Source of the DNA: Propionibacteriaceae bacterium
GTDB taxonomy: Bacteria > Actinomycetota > Actinomycetes > Propionibacteriales > Propionibacteriaceae
Direction of reading: 5' to 3'
Assembly (NCBI GenBank): GCA_025965155.1
Contig: JAOPXN010000026.1
Location: 19,718-83,717 of the forward strand
Length of the DNA: 64,000 nucleotides
Below the pieces are notes generated by a model. That model was not told the origin of the DNA. It saw only the letters and a list, made by a program, of their open reading frames with translations, and made no database searches. This document shows, piece by piece, positions 20,343 to 29,617 of the stretch. The translations under genes and the position numbers were made by a program. Position 1 is the first letter of the stretch; every line of letters starts with the position of its first letter.

Positions 20343-21200
20343 CTATAGCAGCGAGCTGATGTAGCGACCTGCCTTGAGTGCGGCTTGCGGCCGGTCGCCG
20401 TTGCTGACGTCGCGCGTCTCGAGCTCGAGGGAGAGTTTGCCGGTGTAGTTGATCTCGGCGAGTGCTGTGGCGGTGTCGGCGAAGTCGACCTGCCCGTTTC
20501 CGATGCTGTGGTGGATGTAGCCGGGTTCGGCGTCGCGGAGGTGAACGTGGCGGATCCGGCTCCCGAAGTCCTGAACGAACTCGCGCGGGGTGGAACCGGA
20601 GGCGACGATGTGGCTGACGTCGCAGATCAGCCCGATGTCGTCGGGCAGGATGCGCGTCAGGGCGTGAGCACGCTTGAGGTCGTAGCAGAGCCGGAAGAAG
20701 TGTGGTGCCTCAACCCAAAGCTCCAAGCCAGCGGCAGCGCATTCCTGCTGGATGCTGGTGAGTTGTTCAGCGACTAGGGCCAGGTCGTCCTCGAGGGTCG
20801 TGATCGGGTCGTGTTGCTGGGCGCCGTTCGGCAGCACCAGGCCGGTGCTTCCCACGGCTCGACACAACTCGATAAGCCGTTGGGTGTGGTTGTGGCGGCT
20901 CTCGGCCTGGGTGAGGTCAAGGGGCCGGTTCAGATCCCCGACATCGGCATTGACGGAGCGAACGGTGAGACCCGAGGCTCGAACGATCCCAGCGACCTGG
21001 CGGACAGCGTCGGAGGTCAGATCGTAGGGGACGTGGTCGCAGACCCCCGGCAGGGCGCCGAGGTCAATTTCGGTGAATCCCAGCCCGGTGATGACGTCGA
21101 GTGCTTCGTCGAGGGGGAGGTGGCGCAGGGTGATCGAGGAGCAGATGACGCGGTCGGGGTTGAGTGTGTCTCCGGCGCTCGTTGCCGTGGCTGCGGTCAT
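20343..21200 (-). CDS. Sugar phosphate isomerase/epimerase-type TIM-barrel protein (AP endonuclease 2 family)
   Basis: A 285-residue xylose-isomerase-like TIM barrel. Strand-like repeats are visible: VICSSITLRHLPLDEAL, GFTEIDLGALPG, VRSVNADVGDLN, GLELWVEAPHFFRLC (Glu probably metal-binding), IGLICDVSHIVASG (Asp/His), IRHVHLRDAEPG (His) and KLSLELETRD (closing Glu). These positions match the divalent-metal ligands of the fold. Members isomerise or epimerise sugars, inosose or hydroxypyruvate. It is divergent from gntR; the palindrome at 21221 lies between them, which suggests shared control and a role in the same catabolic pathway. Confidence 0.8.
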   Translation of the reverse strand: MTAATATSAGDTLNPDRVICSSITLRHLPLDEALDVITGLGFTEIDLGALPGVCDHVPYDLTSDAVRQVAGIVRASGLTVRSVNADVGDLNRPLDLTQAESRHNHTQRLIELCRAVGSTGLVLPNGAQQHDPITTLEDDLALVAEQLTSIQQECAAAGLELWVEAPHFFRLCYDLKRAHALTRILPDDIGLICDVSHIVASGSTPREFVQDFGSRIRHVHLRDAEPGYIHHSIGNGQVDFADTATALAEINYTGKLSLELETRDVSNGDRPQAALKAGRYISSLL

Positions 21201-21220
21201 GGCAGAACGGTAGGGTGTCA

Positions 21221-21232
21221 GATGTTAACAGT
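21221..21232. promoter_or_regulatory. Candidate GntR operator 1 (GATGTTAACAGT)
   Basis: Shares TGTTAACAGT with the perfect palindrome at 22022-22033 and lies between the divergent isomerase and gntR genes. FadR/FCD-type GntR proteins typically recognise short palindromes of this kind. Confidence 0.6.
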
Positions 21233-21263
21233 CAAGCAGAACAACATTTGCTACCATGACGAT

Positions 21264-21953
21264 GTGGCGGCCTCGCAGATCAAGTCCATCGAAGCCATCG
21301 GGCTTCACACCCGGCGAGAGCTGATCTTGGACCGGTTGCGTGAGGCGATCAGCTCGGGCCAGCTTTCGGCCGGAACGCACCTGGCCGAGGTGGAGCTCAG
21401 CGCGGCGCTTGGGGTGAGCCGCGGCACCCTCCGCGAAGCTCTGCGTCATCTTCAGCAGGAGGGTCTGCTCACGGCGGACTCGCGCGGCCGGCTTTCAGTC
21501 CGGGTCGTCAACACGCGGGAGGTCGAGGAGATCTTCTCCGTTCGCGAAGCGCTGGAGGGTCTTGCCATGCAGATCCTCTGCCAGCGCGAGGACCGTTCGA
21601 CCGTGGTGGCCGATCTCCGCGATCAGCTGGACGGGCTTCGCGCCGCCGAGGGGGAGTTCACCGCTCAGCTCGATGCTGACCTTGCCTTTCACGCTCGCAT
21701 GTGCGAGCTCAGCGGAAACGCCACGCTGCTCAGCACCTGGCGTGGCGTCAGCGGGCTGGCGCGCGCGGCGATCACCGCGGCGGGGCCGGAGACCGCGCTG
21801 CACAACATGGCCTATGAGCGACACCTCCCCATTGTTGAGCTGATTCAGACCGGCGACCTGGCCGGCGGGCAGGCGTTCCTGGCTCGGCACATGGACGAGG
21901 CTGCGCAACGCATCATCGATCAGATGACCCTCGCCGCTGCGGCCGCCGGCTAA
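21264..21953 (+). CDS. GntR-family transcriptional regulator, FadR/FCD subfamily
   Basis: A 229-residue regulator. The winged HTH occupies about residues 12-78 (TRRELILDRLREAISSGQL then ELSAALGVSRGTLREALRHL and LLTADSRGRLSV). The all-helical FCD ligand-binding domain follows (EIFSVREALEGLAMQ, DADLAFHARMCELSGN, HLPIVELIQTGDLAGGQAF, LARHMDEAAQRI), whose Asp/His residues usually bind a metal and an organic acid or sugar acid. The tracked starts at 20811 or 21222 would place coding sequence over the putative operator; the GTG at 21264 (VAASQIKSIEAIG) avoids this and is preferred. It is expected to repress the locus until its ligand appears. Confidence 0.85.
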   Translation: MAASQIKSIEAIGLHTRRELILDRLREAISSGQLSAGTHLAEVELSAALGVSRGTLREALRHLQQEGLLTADSRGRLSVRVVNTREVEEIFSVREALEGLAMQILCQREDRSTVVADLRDQLDGLRAAEGEFTAQLDADLAFHARMCELSGNATLLSTWRGVSGLARAAITAAGPETALHNMAYERHLPIVELIQTGDLAGGQAFLARHMDEAAQRIIDQMTLAAAAAG

Positions 21954-22021
21954 ACCCTCCACTCCACGGCACGGCGCCCGGCACGGGTACGGCCACCCTC
22001 ATTGGTAGGTTGCGCAGTTGC

Positions 22022-22033
22022 ACTGTTAACAGT
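22022..22033. promoter_or_regulatory. Candidate GntR operator 2 (perfect palindrome ACTGTTAACAGT)
   Basis: A fully self-complementary 12-mer lies 70 bases after gntR and upstream of the SDR/ABC genes. It shares ten consecutive bases with the site in front of gntR, so the regulator probably controls both its own promoter and the catabolic operon. Confidence 0.62.
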
Positions 22034-22187
22034 ACGATCGTCGACCAGAGGCTCCCGCTGATCGGTGGCACTATCGAAGGAGATAGATATGGCCGACATT
22101 CCTGTCAGGGATGTGAACGCCGCAGACCCGGTTCTCGGGACCCGGCACGAACTCCGTGTAGCGGTTGGCCTCTATCCGCGCTTCAAC

Positions 22188-22420
22188 GACCTGGCCCACC
22201 GGTCCGATATCATCCGGGCCGTCGTGCTCGCCGCCTCGTGCGGTTTCTCAGCCACCCCGCGGTGCCGGCGTCCAACCGACCGCGTCGAACGCAAGCCGTC
22301 TACGTCTTCGGTACGGCCTCGATCGTCCTGTTCGGCATCCCGATGTTCCTGCTGCTCAGTACCGGAAACCTCCGCCTCATCATCGTCCTGCTCAGCGACG
22401 TCAGCGGCTGGCCACCTTAA
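22188..22420 (+). pseudogene. Remnant of an MHS-type MFS metabolite transporter
   Basis: Pieces of one MFS region are scattered over frames: HRSDIIRAVVLAASCGF, then LSHPAVPAS, then TDRVERKP, then VYVFGTASIVLFGIPMFLLL. Joined they resemble the MHS (metabolite:H+ symporter) segment G-F-L-x2-P-L-F-G-x-L-S-D-R-[VI]-G-R-K-P-V-Y-x-F-G-A, the cytosolic loop plus next helix. At least two indels are needed and the remaining 350 or so residues of the transporter are gone. An upstream ATG (about 22089, MADIPVRDVNAADPV) opens a frame entering this remnant but shows no domain itself. The position between gntR and the SDR suggests an earlier importer of this locus, now replaced by the ABC system. Confidence 0.6.
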
Positions 22421-22551
22421 GCAGCCACCGTGCAGGACTGCGCAGCACCCCCAATTCCGGGCACTAGGCCGGACCGTGCGAGGTCAGCGGCTAGTCCGAG
22501 GGGCCAACGACGAGTCGACCACCCAAGCAGCAACCGAAGGAAGGCACTGAG

Positions 22552-23328
22552 ATGAGTTACCAGACCGGAGTAGGGCAGCGGACCGCCGTTGTGACGGGGG
22601 CGGCCGCCCCGCGCGGCATCGGCTACGCGACCGCCAGACGCTACGCCCGGGAGGGCTGGGCTGTCGCGCTCCTCGACATCGACCAGAACGGCATCGCGGC
22701 CTCGAACCAGCGCCTGCGCGACGAGTCTGACGTGCCCAGCATCGGTCTCGCCGTGGACGTCACCGACCCCGACAGCATCAAGCGCGCGGTGGCTGAGATT
22801 GCAGAGGCGGGCTTGCCTCCGGTCGGTGCGGTTGCCAACATCGCCGGACTCGCGTCGCCGGTGCCGTTCCTCGACGTCGACCTGGCCCTGTGGCAGAAGG
22901 TCCTCGACGTCAACCTCACCGGGACGTTCCTGATGTGCCAGGCATTCCTTCCGCAGATGATCGACAACCGGTACGGGCGCATCGTCAACATGTCGTCAGT
23001 TTCGGCCCAACAAGGCGGCGGCGTCTTCTCCAAGACCCCGTACTCGGCGGCGAAGGCCGGCATCCTGGGCCTGACCAGGTCCCTGGCACGGGAGATGGCC
23101 GAGCACGGCATCACCGTGAACGCCGTCAGTCCCGGGGTGGTCGCCACCGACATCCGCGCGGGCGCCACCGACGAGGAGAACGAAGCCCGACTGGCAGCCG
23201 CGGTCCCGTTGAAGCGCCAGGCGACCGTGGACGACATTGCGGCTTTGTTCGTCTGGCTCTCCAGCGAAGACAGCTCCTACATCACCGGCGGCACCCACAA
23301 CATCAACGGTGGCTCCTACATCGCCTGA
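22552..23328 (+). CDS. Short-chain dehydrogenase/reductase (SDR)
   Basis: A 258-residue classical SDR. The NAD(P) turn is VVTGAAAPRGIGYATA (T-G-x3-G-x-G-like with an inserted residue), with ALLDID at the end of the second strand, where the Asp favours NAD. N-I-A-G follows, then IVNMSSVSAQQ (catalytic Ser), YSAAKAGILGL (catalytic Tyr and Lys) and NAVSPGVVATD. It would oxidise a hydroxyl of the sugar-like or cyclic substrate brought in by the ABC transporter. The ribosome site is GGAAGG before the ATG at 22552. It is the first intact gene after operator 2 and lies 170 bases before the ABC ATPase. Confidence 0.85.
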   Translation: MSYQTGVGQRTAVVTGAAAPRGIGYATARRYAREGWAVALLDIDQNGIAASNQRLRDESDVPSIGLAVDVTDPDSIKRAVAEIAEAGLPPVGAVANIAGLASPVPFLDVDLALWQKVLDVNLTGTFLMCQAFLPQMIDNRYGRIVNMSSVSAQQGGGVFSKTPYSAAKAGILGLTRSLAREMAEHGITVNAVSPGVVATDIRAGATDEENEARLAAAVPLKRQATVDDIAALFVWLSSEDSSYITGGTHNINGGSYIA

Positions 23329-23498: not shown

Positions 23499-25001
23499 AT
23501 GGCCGACCGACCAGACCCTGTCTTGACCATGACCGGAATCGCCAAGAACTTCGCCGGGGTGCAAGCCCTGCGATCGGTCGACTTCGCCCTGTACGCAGGG
23601 GAGATCAACGCGCTGCTCGGCGAGAACGGCGCAGGCAAGTCGACCCTGATCAAGATCATCGCCGGCGCCCATCAGCCTACCGCAGGGGCCATCACCCTCG
23701 ACGGTGTCGAGACCCGGTTCCGCAACCCCCATGCGGCTACCAGCGCTGGCGTCGCCGTCGTCTATCAGGAGACCAGCCTGGCTCCGGACCTGTCGGTGCT
23801 GGAAAATCTGTATCTCGGCTCCTGGGAGCACAAGGGGGGTCGGGTCAGCTGGCACACGATGCGCGTGCAGGCCGCCGAGCTGTTCGAGCGACTGCAGATG
23901 TCCATCCCGCTCTCGGCCCGGCTCGGGTCACTGAGCAAGGCCACCGCGCAGCAGGTCGAGATTGCGCGCGCGCTGTTGCGAGGCGCCCGGATCCTCATCC
24001 TCGACGAGCCAGGGTCGGTGCTGAACGATCAGGAGCTGCGGAGCCTGCACGAGCTGCTGATCGAGTCCAAGCAGAAGGGCGTCGCCGTCGTCTACATCAC
24101 CCACCGGCTGGAGGAGGTCTTCCGACTCGCCGACGAGATCACCGTGCTGCGTGACGGTGTGACCGCCGCCGTCGCCCGCGCCGACGAGGTCGACGAAGCG
24201 TGGGTGATCCGGCAGATGGTCGGCCGTAGCGTGGAGAGTCTCTACGCCCGTCAGGAGACGGCCATCGGGTCCCCGGTGCTCCAGCTGCGGGGACTCTGTG
24301 GCGGCGAGGCATTCGAAGACGTCGACCTGACGGTCCACGCCGGGGAGATTGTCGGTCTGGCCGGCCTGGTCGGCGCCGGTCGCTCCGAGCTGGCCCAGTG
24401 CATCGCCGGACTGCACCCACAGACCGGCGGCTCCTTGTCCATCCTGGGGGCCGAGGTTCCGGCCACACCGTGGGCTCGGCAGGAGGCCGGGGTCGGCTAC
24501 CTCCCCGGTGACCGTGGCGGGCAGGGCATCTTCTCCTTCCGCACGCTCATCTCCAACATCACCTTGACCACGGCCCGCCGCTACGCATCCCTCGGCTTCG
24601 TCCGGCGCGCCGCTCAACGTCAGGCGGCCGCTCAGGCGATGACCCAGCTCAACGTCAAGCCGCTACTGCCCGACCTCGCCATCGGAAATCTGTCCGGCGG
24701 CAACCAGCAGAAGGCGCTCATCGCCCGCGTGTTGGCCACCGAACCCAAGGTATTGATCCTGGAGGAGCCAACCAGCGGCGTGGACATCGGCGCCAAAGAG
24801 GAGATCCACCACCTGATCGACAACCTGGTCGCCCACGGCCTCGGCGTGCTGCTGATCTCCTCCGATCTCCCCGAGCTGGTCGGCATGTCGGACCGGACCC
24901 TGGTCATGCGCGAGGGCCGGATCGCCGGGGAGATCGGCAAGGGCGCCGAGCCTGAGGACGTCATGGCCATCGCCTTCAGCTCTACCTCGGTGAAAGGCTG
25001 A
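23499..25001 (+). CDS. Sugar ABC transporter ATP-binding protein (RbsA/MglA-like, two ATPase domains)
   Basis: A 500-residue tandem ATPase. The first half has Walker A GENGAGKSTLIKIIAG, a degenerate signature LSKATAQQVEIARALL and Walker B ILILDEPGSVLND, where family members usually read DEPTSALT. The second half has the typically altered Walker A GLVGAGRSELAQ, a good signature LSGGNQQKALIARVLA, Walker B ILEEPTSGVDIGAK and switch-region LLISSDLPE. This layout is typical of ribose/galactose/AI-2-type importers. AAGGAGGTG before the ATG is a near-consensus ribosome site, the strongest in the locus. The permeases follow after three bases. Confidence 0.9.
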   Translation: MADRPDPVLTMTGIAKNFAGVQALRSVDFALYAGEINALLGENGAGKSTLIKIIAGAHQPTAGAITLDGVETRFRNPHAATSAGVAVVYQETSLAPDLSVLENLYLGSWEHKGGRVSWHTMRVQAAELFERLQMSIPLSARLGSLSKATAQQVEIARALLRGARILILDEPGSVLNDQELRSLHELLIESKQKGVAVVYITHRLEEVFRLADEITVLRDGVTAAVARADEVDEAWVIRQMVGRSVESLYARQETAIGSPVLQLRGLCGGEAFEDVDLTVHAGEIVGLAGLVGAGRSELAQCIAGLHPQTGGSLSILGAEVPATPWARQEAGVGYLPGDRGGQGIFSFRTLISNITLTTARRYASLGFVRRAAQRQAAAQAMTQLNVKPLLPDLAIGNLSGGNQQKALIARVLATEPKVLILEEPTSGVDIGAKEEIHHLIDNLVAHGLGVLLISSDLPELVGMSDRTLVMREGRIAGEIGKGAEPEDVMAIAFSSTSVKG

Positions 25002-25004
25002 TTC

Positions 25005-25991
25005 ATGTACACCGATCGTTCATCGCAGTACTCGATCGCCGGCTTCCTGGTGGTCGTCTTCCTCACCCTGTTGCTGGTCGCACCACGGTTCTTCGACCCC
25101 ACGAACCTGGTCGACCTCGGTACCAGCGTGGCCATCTCCGCGATCATCGGGATCGGCGCCCTTGCCGTCATCGCTACCGGAAACATCGACGTCAGCGCCG
25201 GCGCCATCTTCGGCATCTCAGGGGTCGCCGGAGCCTCCGCCGCCTCAGCTGGGCTGGGGACCGGGGCCGCGCTGCTCGTGGCGGTGCTCACCGGCGCCAT
25301 GCTGGGCGCCTTGAACGCCGTACTGGTAACGGTGCTTCAGCTTCCCTCGATCATCGCCACGCTCGGAACCTCAAGTCTGTTCGCAGGCGGCCTGATCTTC
25401 CTCACCAGCGGCGGGCTGTGGGTCGTCAACCTGCCCCCGGGGTTCACCTGGCTCGGCCAGGGACGGCTCCTGGGGCTCAGCGTCCCGATCTTTGTCGCAC
25501 TCCTCGTGCTGCTGCTGGCCTGGGCGCTGCTGAGTCAGACCCCGGCCGGACGGCGGATCTTCGCTGTCGGGTCCAACCCGGAGGCCGCGCGGCTGGCTGG
25601 CATCAATGCCAAGCTGGTCGAAGGCGCCACCTTCGTCCTCAACGGCGCCCTGCTCGCTCTCGCCGCCACCCTAACCGTCGCCCGCCAGGGGCAGGCCCAG
25701 ACCAATCTCGGTACGGCGGTCACCATCACCGCCATCACGATCGCCGTCGTCGGCGGGACCAGCGTCTTCGGCGGCACCGGCACCGTGCTCGGCATCGTCC
25801 TCGCCGCCGTACTCGTGGAGAGCACGAGCTCCGCGCTCACCTTCCTCCACCTCGACCCGCTGTGGGCACAGACGCTGCAGGGCGTGTTCATCCTCGCCGC
25901 GCTGACCCTGTCAGTGCTGCAACGGCGCAGCGCCGGCGGCCCGCTCCGTCTGCCCATCTCGATTCTGAAGGGAAACCGTCGTGCTGCGTAA
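25005..25991 (+). CDS. Sugar ABC transporter permease (RbsC-like), first of two
   Basis: A 328-residue protein with about nine or ten membrane segments and the BPD_transp_2 signature regions: AISAIIGIGALAVIATGNIDVSAGAIFG (the G-x-I-D-[LV]-S-x-G motif) and GSNPEAARLAGI in the cytosolic coupling loop that docks on the ATPase. GGTSVFGGTGTVLGIVLAAVL is the usual last part. The start is 3 bases after the ATPase stop, and its end overlaps the next permease start by 11 bases. It forms a heterodimeric channel with the second permease. Confidence 0.88.
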   Translation: MYTDRSSQYSIAGFLVVVFLTLLLVAPRFFDPTNLVDLGTSVAISAIIGIGALAVIATGNIDVSAGAIFGISGVAGASAASAGLGTGAALLVAVLTGAMLGALNAVLVTVLQLPSIIATLGTSSLFAGGLIFLTSGGLWVVNLPPGFTWLGQGRLLGLSVPIFVALLVLLLAWALLSQTPAGRRIFAVGSNPEAARLAGINAKLVEGATFVLNGALLALAATLTVARQGQAQTNLGTAVTITAITIAVVGGTSVFGGTGTVLGIVLAAVLVESTSSALTFLHLDPLWAQTLQGVFILAALTLSVLQRRSAGGPLRLPISILKGNRRAA

Positions 25992-26994
25992 AGCCCTCAC
26001 TACGTCCCTGTCGGCGGTGGTTCTGACTGTGCTCCTGGTCGTCATTGTCGTCACCATGAGCACCCTCTCAGCCAACTTCCTCAGCGTGCCCAACCTGCTC
26101 AGCGCCCTCGCGCTGGCCGCCCCGCTCGGCATCATCGCCATCGGGATGACCTTCGTGGTCCTCATCGGCGGGATCGACCTGTCGGTCGGTGCCGTCCTGG
26201 CGCTCAGCGCAGTCACCGTCGGGCTTGCCTGCAGCGTCGGCGTGCCCGTCGGCGCCGCCGCAGCCCTGGGCCTCATCGTCGGCGCCCTGTGCGGGCTGCT
26301 GAACGGGGTGCTGGTCGCCCGCCTCGGACTGCCCTCCATTGTCGTCACCCTGGCGACCATGTCGGTCTACGGCGGTCTCGCGCTCGCCTTCTCCGGAGGC
26401 AGCTCCTACCCGATCCCGTCCGAGTTCGCGTTCCTCGGCCAGGGGCTGGTCGCCGGGATCCCGATGCCGCTGGTCTGCCTCCTCGTGCTGTTCGCGGTCG
26501 CTTACGTCGCCCTGACCCGCACCACGTACGGCGACAAGATGTACGCGCTCGGCACCAACCCGACCGCGATGCGGTTCGCCGCCCAGAAGGCCGGCAGGCT
26601 CAGCCTGTCCGCCTACGTCATCTCGGGGCTGCTCAGCGCGGTGGCCGCCCTGATCTTCTGCTCGATGGTCTCCAGCGCCAAGGCCAACTTCGGCACCGGC
26701 TACGAGCTGGCGGCCGTCACGATCGTCGTCGTCGGTGGGGCAGCCCTCACCGGCGGCAAGGGAACCCTCTGGGGAACCCTGCTCGCAACGGTGGTGATCG
26801 CCTTCCTGCAAAACGGGTTCTCGATCGCCTTCATCGCCAGCGAGGTCCAGACGATGTTCATCGGTGGTGCCCTCATCCTGACTGCCGCCACCTACCGCTG
26901 GCTGCCGCGCCTGGTTGCCGCCCGACCGGCGGGGACTACTTCTGCACCGCCCACTTCCACCCACACCACACCTACCACGGAGTCAACGCAATGA
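25981..26994 (+). CDS. Sugar ABC transporter permease (RbsC-like), second of two
   Basis: A 337-residue homologue of the preceding permease: GIIAIGMTFVVLIGGIDLSVGAVLAL holds the G-G-I-D-L-S-V-G signature, ALGTNPTAMRFAAQKAGR the ATPase-contact loop, and VVVGGAALTGGKGTLWGTLLA the late conserved helix. The hydrophilic Thr/Pro tail of about 25 residues is unusual for the family. The GTG at 25981 is inside the previous gene, and the stop overlaps the lipoprotein ATG (ATGA). A two-permease arrangement recalls LsrC/LsrD rather than the single RbsC. Confidence 0.88.
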   Translation: MLRKALTTSLSAVVLTVLLVVIVVTMSTLSANFLSVPNLLSALALAAPLGIIAIGMTFVVLIGGIDLSVGAVLALSAVTVGLACSVGVPVGAAAALGLIVGALCGLLNGVLVARLGLPSIVVTLATMSVYGGLALAFSGGSSYPIPSEFAFLGQGLVAGIPMPLVCLLVLFAVAYVALTRTTYGDKMYALGTNPTAMRFAAQKAGRLSLSAYVISGLLSAVAALIFCSMVSSAKANFGTGYELAAVTIVVVGGAALTGGKGTLWGTLLATVVIAFLQNGFSIAFIASEVQTMFIGGALILTAATYRWLPRLVAARPAGTTSAPPTSTHTTPTTESTQ

Positions 26995-28028
26995 AGCTGA
27001 AGACAGTTATGGCGGCAATCCTCGCCGTCCTCACCCTTACACTCGCCGCTTGCAGCATGGGCGGCACCCCCACCGCGGGCGCCCCAGCCAGCGGGACCAG
27101 CAAGAGCGGCCCGCTGCAGATTGCCATCATCCCCAAGATCAACGGAATTCCGTACTACCAGGCCGTCAAGAAGGGTGTGGACGAGGCGGCTGCCGAGCTG
27201 GGCGGCGACAAGGTCAAGGTCATCTGGAACGGCCCCAGCACAGCTGAGGCGAGCGCTCAGGTGCAGATCATCCAGAACATGATCAACGCGAAGGTAGACG
27301 TGATCGCCATCGCCGCCAACGATCCCGCCGCCGTCGCCCCCGCGTTGCAGCAAGCCAAAGACGCGGGCATCCGGGTGATGTCCTGGGACGGCGACGCAGA
27401 CGTGCGTGAACTGTTCGTCCAGCTGATCGACGCCAAGCAGTTCGGTGCGGCGCTGGCCGACCAGATGGCCGAGCAGGTCGGCGAGAAGGCCGACGTCGCC
27501 GTGGTCACCTCGACCCGCACCGCCCCCAACCAGTCCGCGTGGCTGAAGGGCATTGAGGCACGCATTGCCGAGGCGCACCCCGGACTGAAGATCGTCACCC
27601 TCACGGAGAGCGGTGAGGACCAGGGCCTCGCCCAGAAGCAGACCAAGGACATCCTCGGCGCCTACCCCGACGTAAAGGGAATCTTCGCGATCACCACCGC
27701 CGCTCTCCCGGGTGCTGCCCAGGCCGTGGACTCCCTCGGCAAGAAGGGTCAGATCGCGGTCGTCGGCAACTCGACCCCGAATGCGATCAAGCAGTACTTC
27801 ACGTCGGGCACCTTGAAGTCCGCAGTGCTGTGGAACCCGATCGACCACGGCTACCTCACCGTGCAGGCCGCCTATGCCCTGGCCACCGACAAGGTCACCG
27901 ACGGGACAAGCTTCGAAGCGGGCCGGCTCGGCACCTACACCCCGAAGGCCGACGACAAGAGCTTGATCATTACCTTGAGCAAGCCGCTCGTCTTCACTCC
28001 GGACAACATCAACAACTACGACTTCTGA
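26991..28028 (+). CDS. Sugar ABC transporter substrate-binding lipoprotein (periplasmic-binding-protein type I)
   Basis: A 345-residue lipoprotein. The signal AAILAVLTLTLAACSMG carries the lipobox L-A-A-C with Cys at residue 20. The mature part is a Peripla_BP_4 fold: QIAIIPKINGIPYYQAVKKG (first strand and helix), MINAKVDVIAIAANDPAAV, IRVMSWDGDAD, GIFAITTAALPGAAQAV and IAVVGNSTPNAIKQYFTSGT. It is closest in pattern to RhaS/LsrB-like binding proteins. The tracked 579-residue ORF begins in an unrelated frame. The ATG at 26991 overlaps the permease stop. A very stable hairpin follows directly, which may keep this mRNA part abundant. Confidence 0.88.
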   Translation: MKLKTVMAAILAVLTLTLAACSMGGTPTAGAPASGTSKSGPLQIAIIPKINGIPYYQAVKKGVDEAAAELGGDKVKVIWNGPSTAEASAQVQIIQNMINAKVDVIAIAANDPAAVAPALQQAKDAGIRVMSWDGDADVRELFVQLIDAKQFGAALADQMAEQVGEKADVAVVTSTRTAPNQSAWLKGIEARIAEAHPGLKIVTLTESGEDQGLAQKQTKDILGAYPDVKGIFAITTAALPGAAQAVDSLGKKGQIAVVGNSTPNAIKQYFTSGTLKSAVLWNPIDHGYLTVQAAYALATDKVTDGTSFEAGRLGTYTPKADDKSLIITLSKPLVFTPDNINNYDF

Positions 28029-28103: not shown

Positions 28104-29048
28104 ATGACCACGGTGCCGGCCGCCAATCGGATCAGCAAGGCCGCGTTCGACGAGCTGGTCCAGCAGGTCCGCGTCTGGGGACGGCCCGACCAACCCGATG
28201 AGCCTGCACTGTTCACCCGGATCACCCCCGAGGTGACCAGGGCCGCCCTGGCGGAGGTGCACACCGGCCGGACCGTGTCGCTGGGACGGCCCTGGGCCGA
28301 GTCTCCGGCCACCGACAACTCCAGACCGGCACTGCACTACATGAGCGCGCTCGGCATCCTGCTCGCCGACGGCGACACCGAGCCGACCTGCTACAAGGAC
28401 TTCCTCGGCGTCGACTTCCACGGCAAGACCATGAGCCACATCGACGCCTTCAACCACATCGCCTACGCCGGCCAGATCTTTGGGGGTATACCCGCCACCG
28501 AAACCGTGGTCGCCAATGGCATGACAGCCGGAGACGTCAACCTCTACGGACCGCTCATCACCCGTGGAGTTCTGCTGGACATGGCCACCGTCGCAGGGGA
28601 CGCCTGGACCGAACCCGGAACCGCTTGGACGCTCGAAGAGATCCAACATGCCCTCGACTTGGAGCAGGTCACCCTGCAGAGCGGTGACGCGGTCTTGTTC
28701 CGATCCGGCCACGATCGCCGACGTGCTGAGCTCGGACCGTGGGACCCCGACATGGCCGGCGCGGGCGTCCACGTCACCGCCATCCCGTGGCTGCTCGACC
28801 AAGGAGCCGCCGTCCTCGGTGCGGACGGCGAGACCGACGTCCGCCCCAGCCCCGTGGATCAGGTCACCCTGCCCATCCACGTCCTGACCCTGACCATGGC
28901 CGGCGTGCCGCTACTGGACAACCTCAACCTCGAACAACTCAGCAGCGCCTGCGCCGAAACCGGCAGGTACACGTTTGCGCTCTCCGTCGCACCCCTCAAC
29001 ATCCCGCTCGGTACCGGTTCACCGGTCAACCCCACGGCGATCTTCTAG
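28104..29048 (+). CDS. Cyclase-family metal-dependent hydrolase (PF04199, kynurenine-formamidase-like fold)
   Basis: A 314-residue protein. The family metal motif H-G-x-T-x-x-H-x-D-A-x3-H appears as DFHGKTMSHIDAFNHIAYAG near residues 108-125. Further pieces, LITRGVLLDMATVAG, LQSGDAVLFRSGHDRRR and VHVTAIPWLLDQGAAVLGAD, complete the alpha/beta pattern. Known relatives hydrolyse N-formylkynurenine, isatin or cyclic imides/lactones, or act in polyketide cyclisation; at over 300 residues this one is in the longer, mostly uncharacterised branch. GAGGAGT precedes the ATG. As the last gene of the locus it may open a ring or lactone made by the SDR. Confidence 0.8.
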   Translation: MTTVPAANRISKAAFDELVQQVRVWGRPDQPDEPALFTRITPEVTRAALAEVHTGRTVSLGRPWAESPATDNSRPALHYMSALGILLADGDTEPTCYKDFLGVDFHGKTMSHIDAFNHIAYAGQIFGGIPATETVVANGMTAGDVNLYGPLITRGVLLDMATVAGDAWTEPGTAWTLEEIQHALDLEQVTLQSGDAVLFRSGHDRRRAELGPWDPDMAGAGVHVTAIPWLLDQGAAVLGADGETDVRPSPVDQVTLPIHVLTLTMAGVPLLDNLNLEQLSSACAETGRYTFALSVAPLNIPLGTGSPVNPTAIF

Positions 29049-29242: not shown

Positions 29243-29617
29243 TCACCACAGCGCTTGAATAACCGTGCCGGTGTGCAGTGTCGAGACCGTGGCCCGCTTG
29301 CTTGCCTCCATCACGGCTCCAAGGTCCTCGGCCCACTTCTCCATGGCCTCCTGCCAATGCCTGGAGATGCCGGCAGCCGTCTCGTAGTACTCGTCCAGCA
29401 CATAGATGGTCCTACCGGTGGCCGGTGCGCTCGGATCCAGCGGATTCGAAAGCTCCGGGCCCTTGGAGATGGTGTAGGAGAGTAGCGCTGCATCGCCCTG
29501 GCGTGGATGGCCCGTCATCCACTCGCCGTGGCTGGCGAAGATGCGGTCCCATTCGCCTTCGGCGTCTGGCTCCACGGTCCACATGATGACGAGCTGAGCT
29601 TTGTCCATGAGCGACAT
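29243..29617 (-). CDS. Hypothetical protein (124 aa), possibly dimeric alpha/beta-barrel type
   Basis: A soluble acidic 124-residue protein. It starts with a strand-like segment (AQLVIMWTVEPDAEGEWDRIFASHGEWM), has GDAALLSYTISKGPELSNPL and RTIYVLDEYYETAAGISRHW in the middle, and ends with a helix and TGTVIQALW. The pattern of strand, helix and a Tyr-Glu-x-Tyr-type centre recalls ABM/YCII-like ferredoxin-fold proteins, but I cannot assign a family. AAAGGACGG precedes the ATG. It is monocistronic, and its stop abuts the IS110-like scrap, so the C-terminus could have been altered. Confidence 0.6.
   Translation of the reverse strand: MSLMDKAQLVIMWTVEPDAEGEWDRIFASHGEWMTGHPRQGDAALLSYTISKGPELSNPLDPSAPATGRTIYVLDEYYETAAGISRHWQEAMEKWAEDLGAVMEASKRATVSTLHTGTVIQALW

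Follow-up and report, generated by a model that had tools for sequence, protein, structure and literature searches.

Regulons for L-rhamnose use importers of unrelated families, namely RhaT (DMT), RhaSTPQ and RhaFGHJ (ABC), and RhaY (MFS) (PMC3870299). Replacement of an importer within a catabolic regulon is a known and common phenomenon, and the case described here is one small example of it. As with rhamnose, we find one catabolic regulon with lineage-specific importers, here of MHS, TRAP, or ABC type beside GntR and SDR genes; what differs is that a pseudogene of the probably displaced importer can still be seen, and that a genome with two importers exists. The fossil in place, the kept switch, and the two-importer relative are what is new. 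The MHS family (TIGR00883; relatives ProP, ShiA, and KgtP) is recognized in the remnant by the retained LTDRVGR(K/R)PVY loop and the next helix, the difference being that the gene studied here is dead. RbsA/RhaS-type (carbohydrate uptake 2) ABC importers share with the intact importer of our locus one double ATPase, two BPD_transp_2 permeases, and a RhaS/LsrB-like substrate-binding protein; however, our importer stays under every NCBIfam equivalog cut-off, and has a cyclase-fold hydrolase in place of the rhamnose enzymes. In tetritol and tetrulose catabolism, as worked out in Mycobacterium smegmatis, an SDR dehydrogenase, a DhaK-like erythrulose kinase, and an RpiB-like isomerase take part.

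The locus and its transporter remnant

The window, by which we mean the whole 64-kb stretch (64,000 nucleotides) of Propionibacteriaceae DNA that was analysed, holds a gene for an FCD-type GntR regulator (gntR, 21264..21953, plus strand; PF00392, PF07729), 69% identical to the Kineococcus regulator that adjoins an intact MHS gene. Divergent from it is a gene for a xylose-isomerase-like TIM-barrel protein (XI, 20343..21200, minus strand; PF01261), whose kin stand beside MHS and SDR genes in loci L128-L132. In a tree, the window’s XI falls in a different clade from those of the three nearest MHS-bearing relatives, so the locus is a mosaic. On the plus strand, the SDR dehydrogenase (22552..23328; PF13561) is 76–78% identical to SDRs directly 3' of intact MHS genes and is probably an enzyme retained from the old MHS operon. 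Behind it lies an intact ABC importer, consisting of an RbsA/AraG-type ATPase (23499..25001), two permeases (25005..25991 and 25981..26994, both PF02653), and a RhaS/LsrB-like substrate-binding lipoprotein (26991..28028), and the module ends with a hydrolase of the cyclase/kynurenine-formamidase fold (28104..29048; PF04199), all likewise on the plus strand. The binding protein scores 236.5 bits against TIGR02637, short of the cut-off of 342 that would mark a RhaS-type rhamnose importer; its PDB neighbours are rhamnose and AI-2 binders, while the PDB gave one uncharacterised protein as neighbour for the cyclase and none for the XI-like protein. After the cyclase, a small convergent ORF (29243-29617, 124 aa) has a protein-like codon composition.

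Between gntR and the SDR gene lies an MHS-type MFS transporter pseudogene (22089..22390, plus strand), identified by tblastn and by frameshift-aware alignment to the Puerhibacterium, Kineococcus, and Isoptericola orthologs. The full-length transporter has ~450–460 aa, and of this the remnant keeps a ribosome-binding site (Shine-Dalgarno GAAGGAG), the start codon, and ~27 N-terminal codons (22089..22169; PVLGTRHELRVAVG against PVLGTRHKLRTAIG and RVLGTEHKKRVAVG), followed in the same frame by a middle part (22170..22298, Isoptericola residues 267-309) and then by a part that is out of frame through the deletion of one base (22299..22390, residues 310-340). The translation accordingly reads MADIPVRDVNAADPVLGTRHELRVAVG, a gap of 241 lost codons, and LYPRFND...TDRVERKP, then YVFGTASIVLFGIPMFLLLSTGNLRLIIVL. 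In-frame loss of these 241 codons between the first two pieces was seen in all four ortholog comparisons, and ~120 codons are gone after 22390; no C-terminal transporter remnant was found in 22391-22551 by tblastn. Read directly, the frame of 22089 runs to ...PTDRVERKP, and the neighbouring frame gives VYVFGTASIVLFGIPMFLLLSTGNLRLII.

The alignment was run with costly gap opening, as cheap long gaps gave scattered spurious matches over 22058-22541. Its collinear pieces are residues 12-25 (22128-22169), 267-309 (22170-22298), and 310-340 (22299-22390), with scores of 194–202 against the three nearest intact orthologs and 130 against the distant L128, compared with 34.6±4.9 (maximum 52) in 60 shuffles and 30 on the reverse strand. 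With the intact Isoptericola MHS protein as query, tblastn found 71% identity over 14 aa at the N-terminus (22128-22169), 50% over 42 aa at 22173-22298, and 58% over 31 aa at 22298-22390 (E-values for the remnant 1.3e-13 and 6e-5). The homology thus goes beyond one motif and is collinear with intact MHS-type members, while the two remnant pieces alone, being too short, had no Pfam or NCBIfam match, and an Rfam scan of 21900-22600 had none either. These results confirm the MHS-type fossil that the first-pass annotation had seen at 22188-22420, where TDRVERKP and (V)YVFGTASIVLFGIPMFLLLSTGNLRLII do occur, in two frames with one base missing at 22298/22299. The place was right, but the gene starts further upstream, at the ATG at 22089 with its own Shine-Dalgarno sequence, and the proposed joining across at least two indels reduces to one small indel between the joined stretches, the large lesions being deletions.

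The remnant is 53–59% identical to its orthologs at the amino-acid level, compared with 76–78% for the adjoining SDR against the same three genomes. Since the intact MHS (80–81%) and the intact SDR (84%) of those genomes diverge at a similar rate, the lower identity of the remnant is as expected from loss of constraint. Shortened, frameshifted, and under relaxed constraint, the transporter gene is, as judged from its sequence, non-functional. Regarding family, the best NCBIfam match of the intact orthologs is TIGR00883 (343.6 bits for the Isoptericola protein, which does not reach the curated cut-off of 443), with Pfam matches to MFS_1 (PF07690) and Sugar_tr, and the ShiA model gives 278 bits against a cut-off of 538. 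Because these scores lie under the curated cut-offs, they do not allow any of the known MHS cargos to be assigned; from the same matches, membership in the MFS is beyond doubt and the transporter is best described as MHS-like at the subfamily level.

Importers in relatives and the shared operator

A genome search with the SDR gave four close loci at 70–78% identity, among them those of Puerhibacterium (L034), Kineococcus (L035), and Isoptericola (L036). In these three, a complete MFS gene (~450–460 aa) stands exactly between gntR and SDR, so that the slot still holds an intact old importer in relatives, and the remnant’s position behind gntR as that of an importer gene, as first supposed, is borne out. 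The gntR-MHS-SDR arrangement without ABC genes, which the first-pass annotation had proposed to look for, occurs in Kineococcus and Isoptericola. MHS genes also lie near an SDR, with a GntR, in nine further loci among SDR relatives of the window’s family and class (L128-L135, L137). In the genome that holds L134, which is of the same family and has an intact MHS gene adjoining its SDR, an MHS gene at another locus (L139 7109-9570, on G052 C61) is split by an antisense transposase-like insert of 355 aa.

A third type of importer is found at this locus in Phycicoccus (L037, 1492-9083) and in L127 (5679-15184), where the MHS slot ahead of SDR-XI-DhaK-RpiB is taken by a TRAP importer with recognisable DctP and DctM and the same GntR operator. 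Puerhibacterium has the order gntR-ABC-permease-permease-SBP-cyclase, followed directly by gntR-MHS-SDR-XI-DhaK-RpiB, and thus holds both an intact MHS gene and an ortholog of the window’s ABC-cyclase module (59–68% identity: 65% for the ATPase at L034 1984-3459, 65% and 59% for permeases 1 and 2, 68% for the binding protein, and 63% for the cyclase, which directly follows the binding protein there too). The ABC module was found in these two genomes only: among the four genomes with the closest SDR it is in Puerhibacterium alone, and no further copies were found among 395 genomes of the class (binding protein, E<1e-90). Within the genus, the window’s gntR is absent from the other sampled genomes (20 genomes), as is its SDR, and no intact MHS copy was found in the sampled genomes. 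The absence of gntR and SDR suggests that the locus was gained by transfer, or lost elsewhere; with no sister species that has the locus, the intact ancestor and the order of events are unseen in this lineage.

The palindrome GACTGTTAACAGTC is found upstream of MHS, TRAP, and ABC importer operons alike. We scanned the 64 kb with an operator matrix trained on other loci only, the window being excluded, and the best site, at 21.5 bits, was the palindrome GCACTGTTAACAGTAC, operator-like and situated in the dead gene’s leader (22020..22035). The second best, at 15.2 bits, was CAGATGTTAACAGTCA in the stretch that separates gntR from the XI-like gene (21219..21234), and the next-best site had 13.2 bits. 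Two exact copies of the core TGTTAACA are present in the window, where 0.06 are expected. Before the fossil’s operator there is no obvious -35 consensus, whereas Puerhibacterium and Isoptericola have TTGACA there. In the relatives, the operator lies at L037 2209 and L127 6373 (TRAP), and at L034 1877 before the ABC operon (18.8 bits), and in the regulator tree the window’s GntR groups with that of Kineococcus and with both Puerhibacterium copies (support 94). The old and the new importer thus appear to be under the same regulator, and the predicted operator and regulator clade common to MHS and ABC genes are the best evidence that both would answer to one signal. No operator was found upstream of the SDR, ABC, SBP, or cyclase genes in the window by the matrix scan. 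As the putative regulator sites near the operon are only those in the fossil leader and before gntR, the promoter/operator region of the dead gene most likely still drives SDR-ABC-cyclase.

Probable importer replacement and competing explanations

We consider it probable (about 0.7) that the importer was replaced: an ancestral gntR-MHS-SDR locus would have gained the ABC genes in its regulon, then lost the MHS gene, and kept the leader. The ancestor would have been a GntR-controlled gntR-MHS-SDR operon with an XI-like isomerase as partner and the MHS protein as importer. A second importer (RbsA/RhaS-type ABC with a cyclase-type hydrolase) would then have been brought under a GntR operator of this kind, landing directly behind the SDR gene. 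Once the regulon had two importers, the MHS gene may have become dispensable and undergone large deletions and a frameshift, and its leader may have been retained because the SDR and ABC genes depend on the promoter and operator there. The transporter swap that the first-pass annotation had suggested is plausible, and indeed well supported, because the operator is common to MHS, TRAP, and ABC operons and Puerhibacterium carries both importers; the common cargo and the order of events are what we infer. Genomes show the first, the double (Puerhibacterium), and the last state, and most likely the swap passed through a stage with both importers. Weighing against this reading are the absence of the locus from sister species, the mosaic nature of the locus as judged from its XI gene, the finding of the ABC module in two genomes only, and the lack of an obvious -35 consensus before the fossil’s operator.

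It is possible instead, though in our view unlikely, that the ABC-cyclase module imports another compound and that the MHS gene was merely lost, the two having become neighbours by chance or operon fusion. Neither importer has an assigned cargo, the ABC module has an enzyme of its own (the cyclase) and in Puerhibacterium its own regulator copy, relatives of the cyclase (43–54%) in genomes of Streptomyces size lie near other ABC importers that look unrelated, and the binding protein resembles sugar and AI-2 binders, all of which would fit such a loss. However, the Puerhibacterium ABC operon shares both its operator and the clade of its regulator with the MHS operons, which points to a single signal, and the window’s ABC genes run in the same direction as the SDR gene ahead of them and lack a separate operator.

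The remnant might also be read as a small functional protein or a translated leader, possibly coupling translation to the SDR gene: it has an unbroken ribosome-binding site and start codon (ATG at 22089), and its frame runs open as far as 22550 (153 codons, with its stop one base ahead of the SDR start). This is very improbable, since ~12% of same-composition shuffles stay open that far, the part after 22298 is former transporter in the wrong frame, and there is no Pfam, NCBIfam, or Rfam match; a leader peptide at 22089-22550 was rejected, its openness not being beyond chance (12%). That the organism has an intact gene which is broken only in the assembly is scarcely credible: the genome is a draft of 134 contigs and the only one available for its species, yet sequencing error would not be expected to produce a frameshift together with two large deletions and a lowered identity of the remaining codons, the neighbouring genes are all intact, and the remnant’s best match elsewhere in the genome is only a 41–43% paralog.

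Pathway and significance of the old slot

The first-pass annotation had hinted at a small organic acid as substrate. This is doubtful, as it was drawn from the MHS name alone, and the enzymes of the relatives fit a ketose/polyol or a sugar acid better. Genes for DhaK, RpiB, xylose-isomerase-like proteins, and a split, two-gene transketolase are co-clustered in relatives, recurring in subsets of their loci, and suggest ketose/polyol-type catabolism; MHS and TRAP importers would suit a sugar acid as well. The split transketolase lies beside an MHS or TRAP importer, SDR, and XI in L128 (11774-13704), L133 (8843-10703), and L127 (13356-15184), and a pathway with it seems undescribed. As in tetritol and tetrulose catabolism, SDR, XI-like, DhaK-like, and RpiB/DerI-like genes are present in the relatives’ loci. 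These loci differ by the added split transketolase, and the window differs in that its SDR scores 180 bits against a cut-off of 286 for GolD/DthD; the score of the relatives’ RpiB-like protein falls short of the DerI cut-off and exceeds that of an actinobacterial RPI. The DhaK and RpiB-like genes of the window’s own genome are elsewhere, unlinked to the locus. In that genome, L176 (G000 C14, 618-10614) has a zinc alcohol dehydrogenase, a TpiA-like protein, a sugar ABC importer, a DeoR-type regulator, DhaK, and an RpiB-like protein; from its gene content this operon looks like one for tetritol catabolism, and it could supply the later steps of the pathway.

Taken more broadly, and only tentatively, GntR, SDR, and XI may form an uncharacterised ketose, polyol, or sugar-acid regulon in which MHS, TRAP, and ABC importers are interchangeable, with the window and Puerhibacterium giving its before, double, and after states, and with the leader still a regulated promoter. 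Importer replacement is usually deduced from comparing genomes with differing importers; here the lost one is readable in place. The fossil, the two-importer relative, and the common operator make a route of gain first and then loss testable, and the old slot is a lead to the substrate of the pathway, via the SDR, XI, DhaK, RpiB, and transketolase loci of the relatives.
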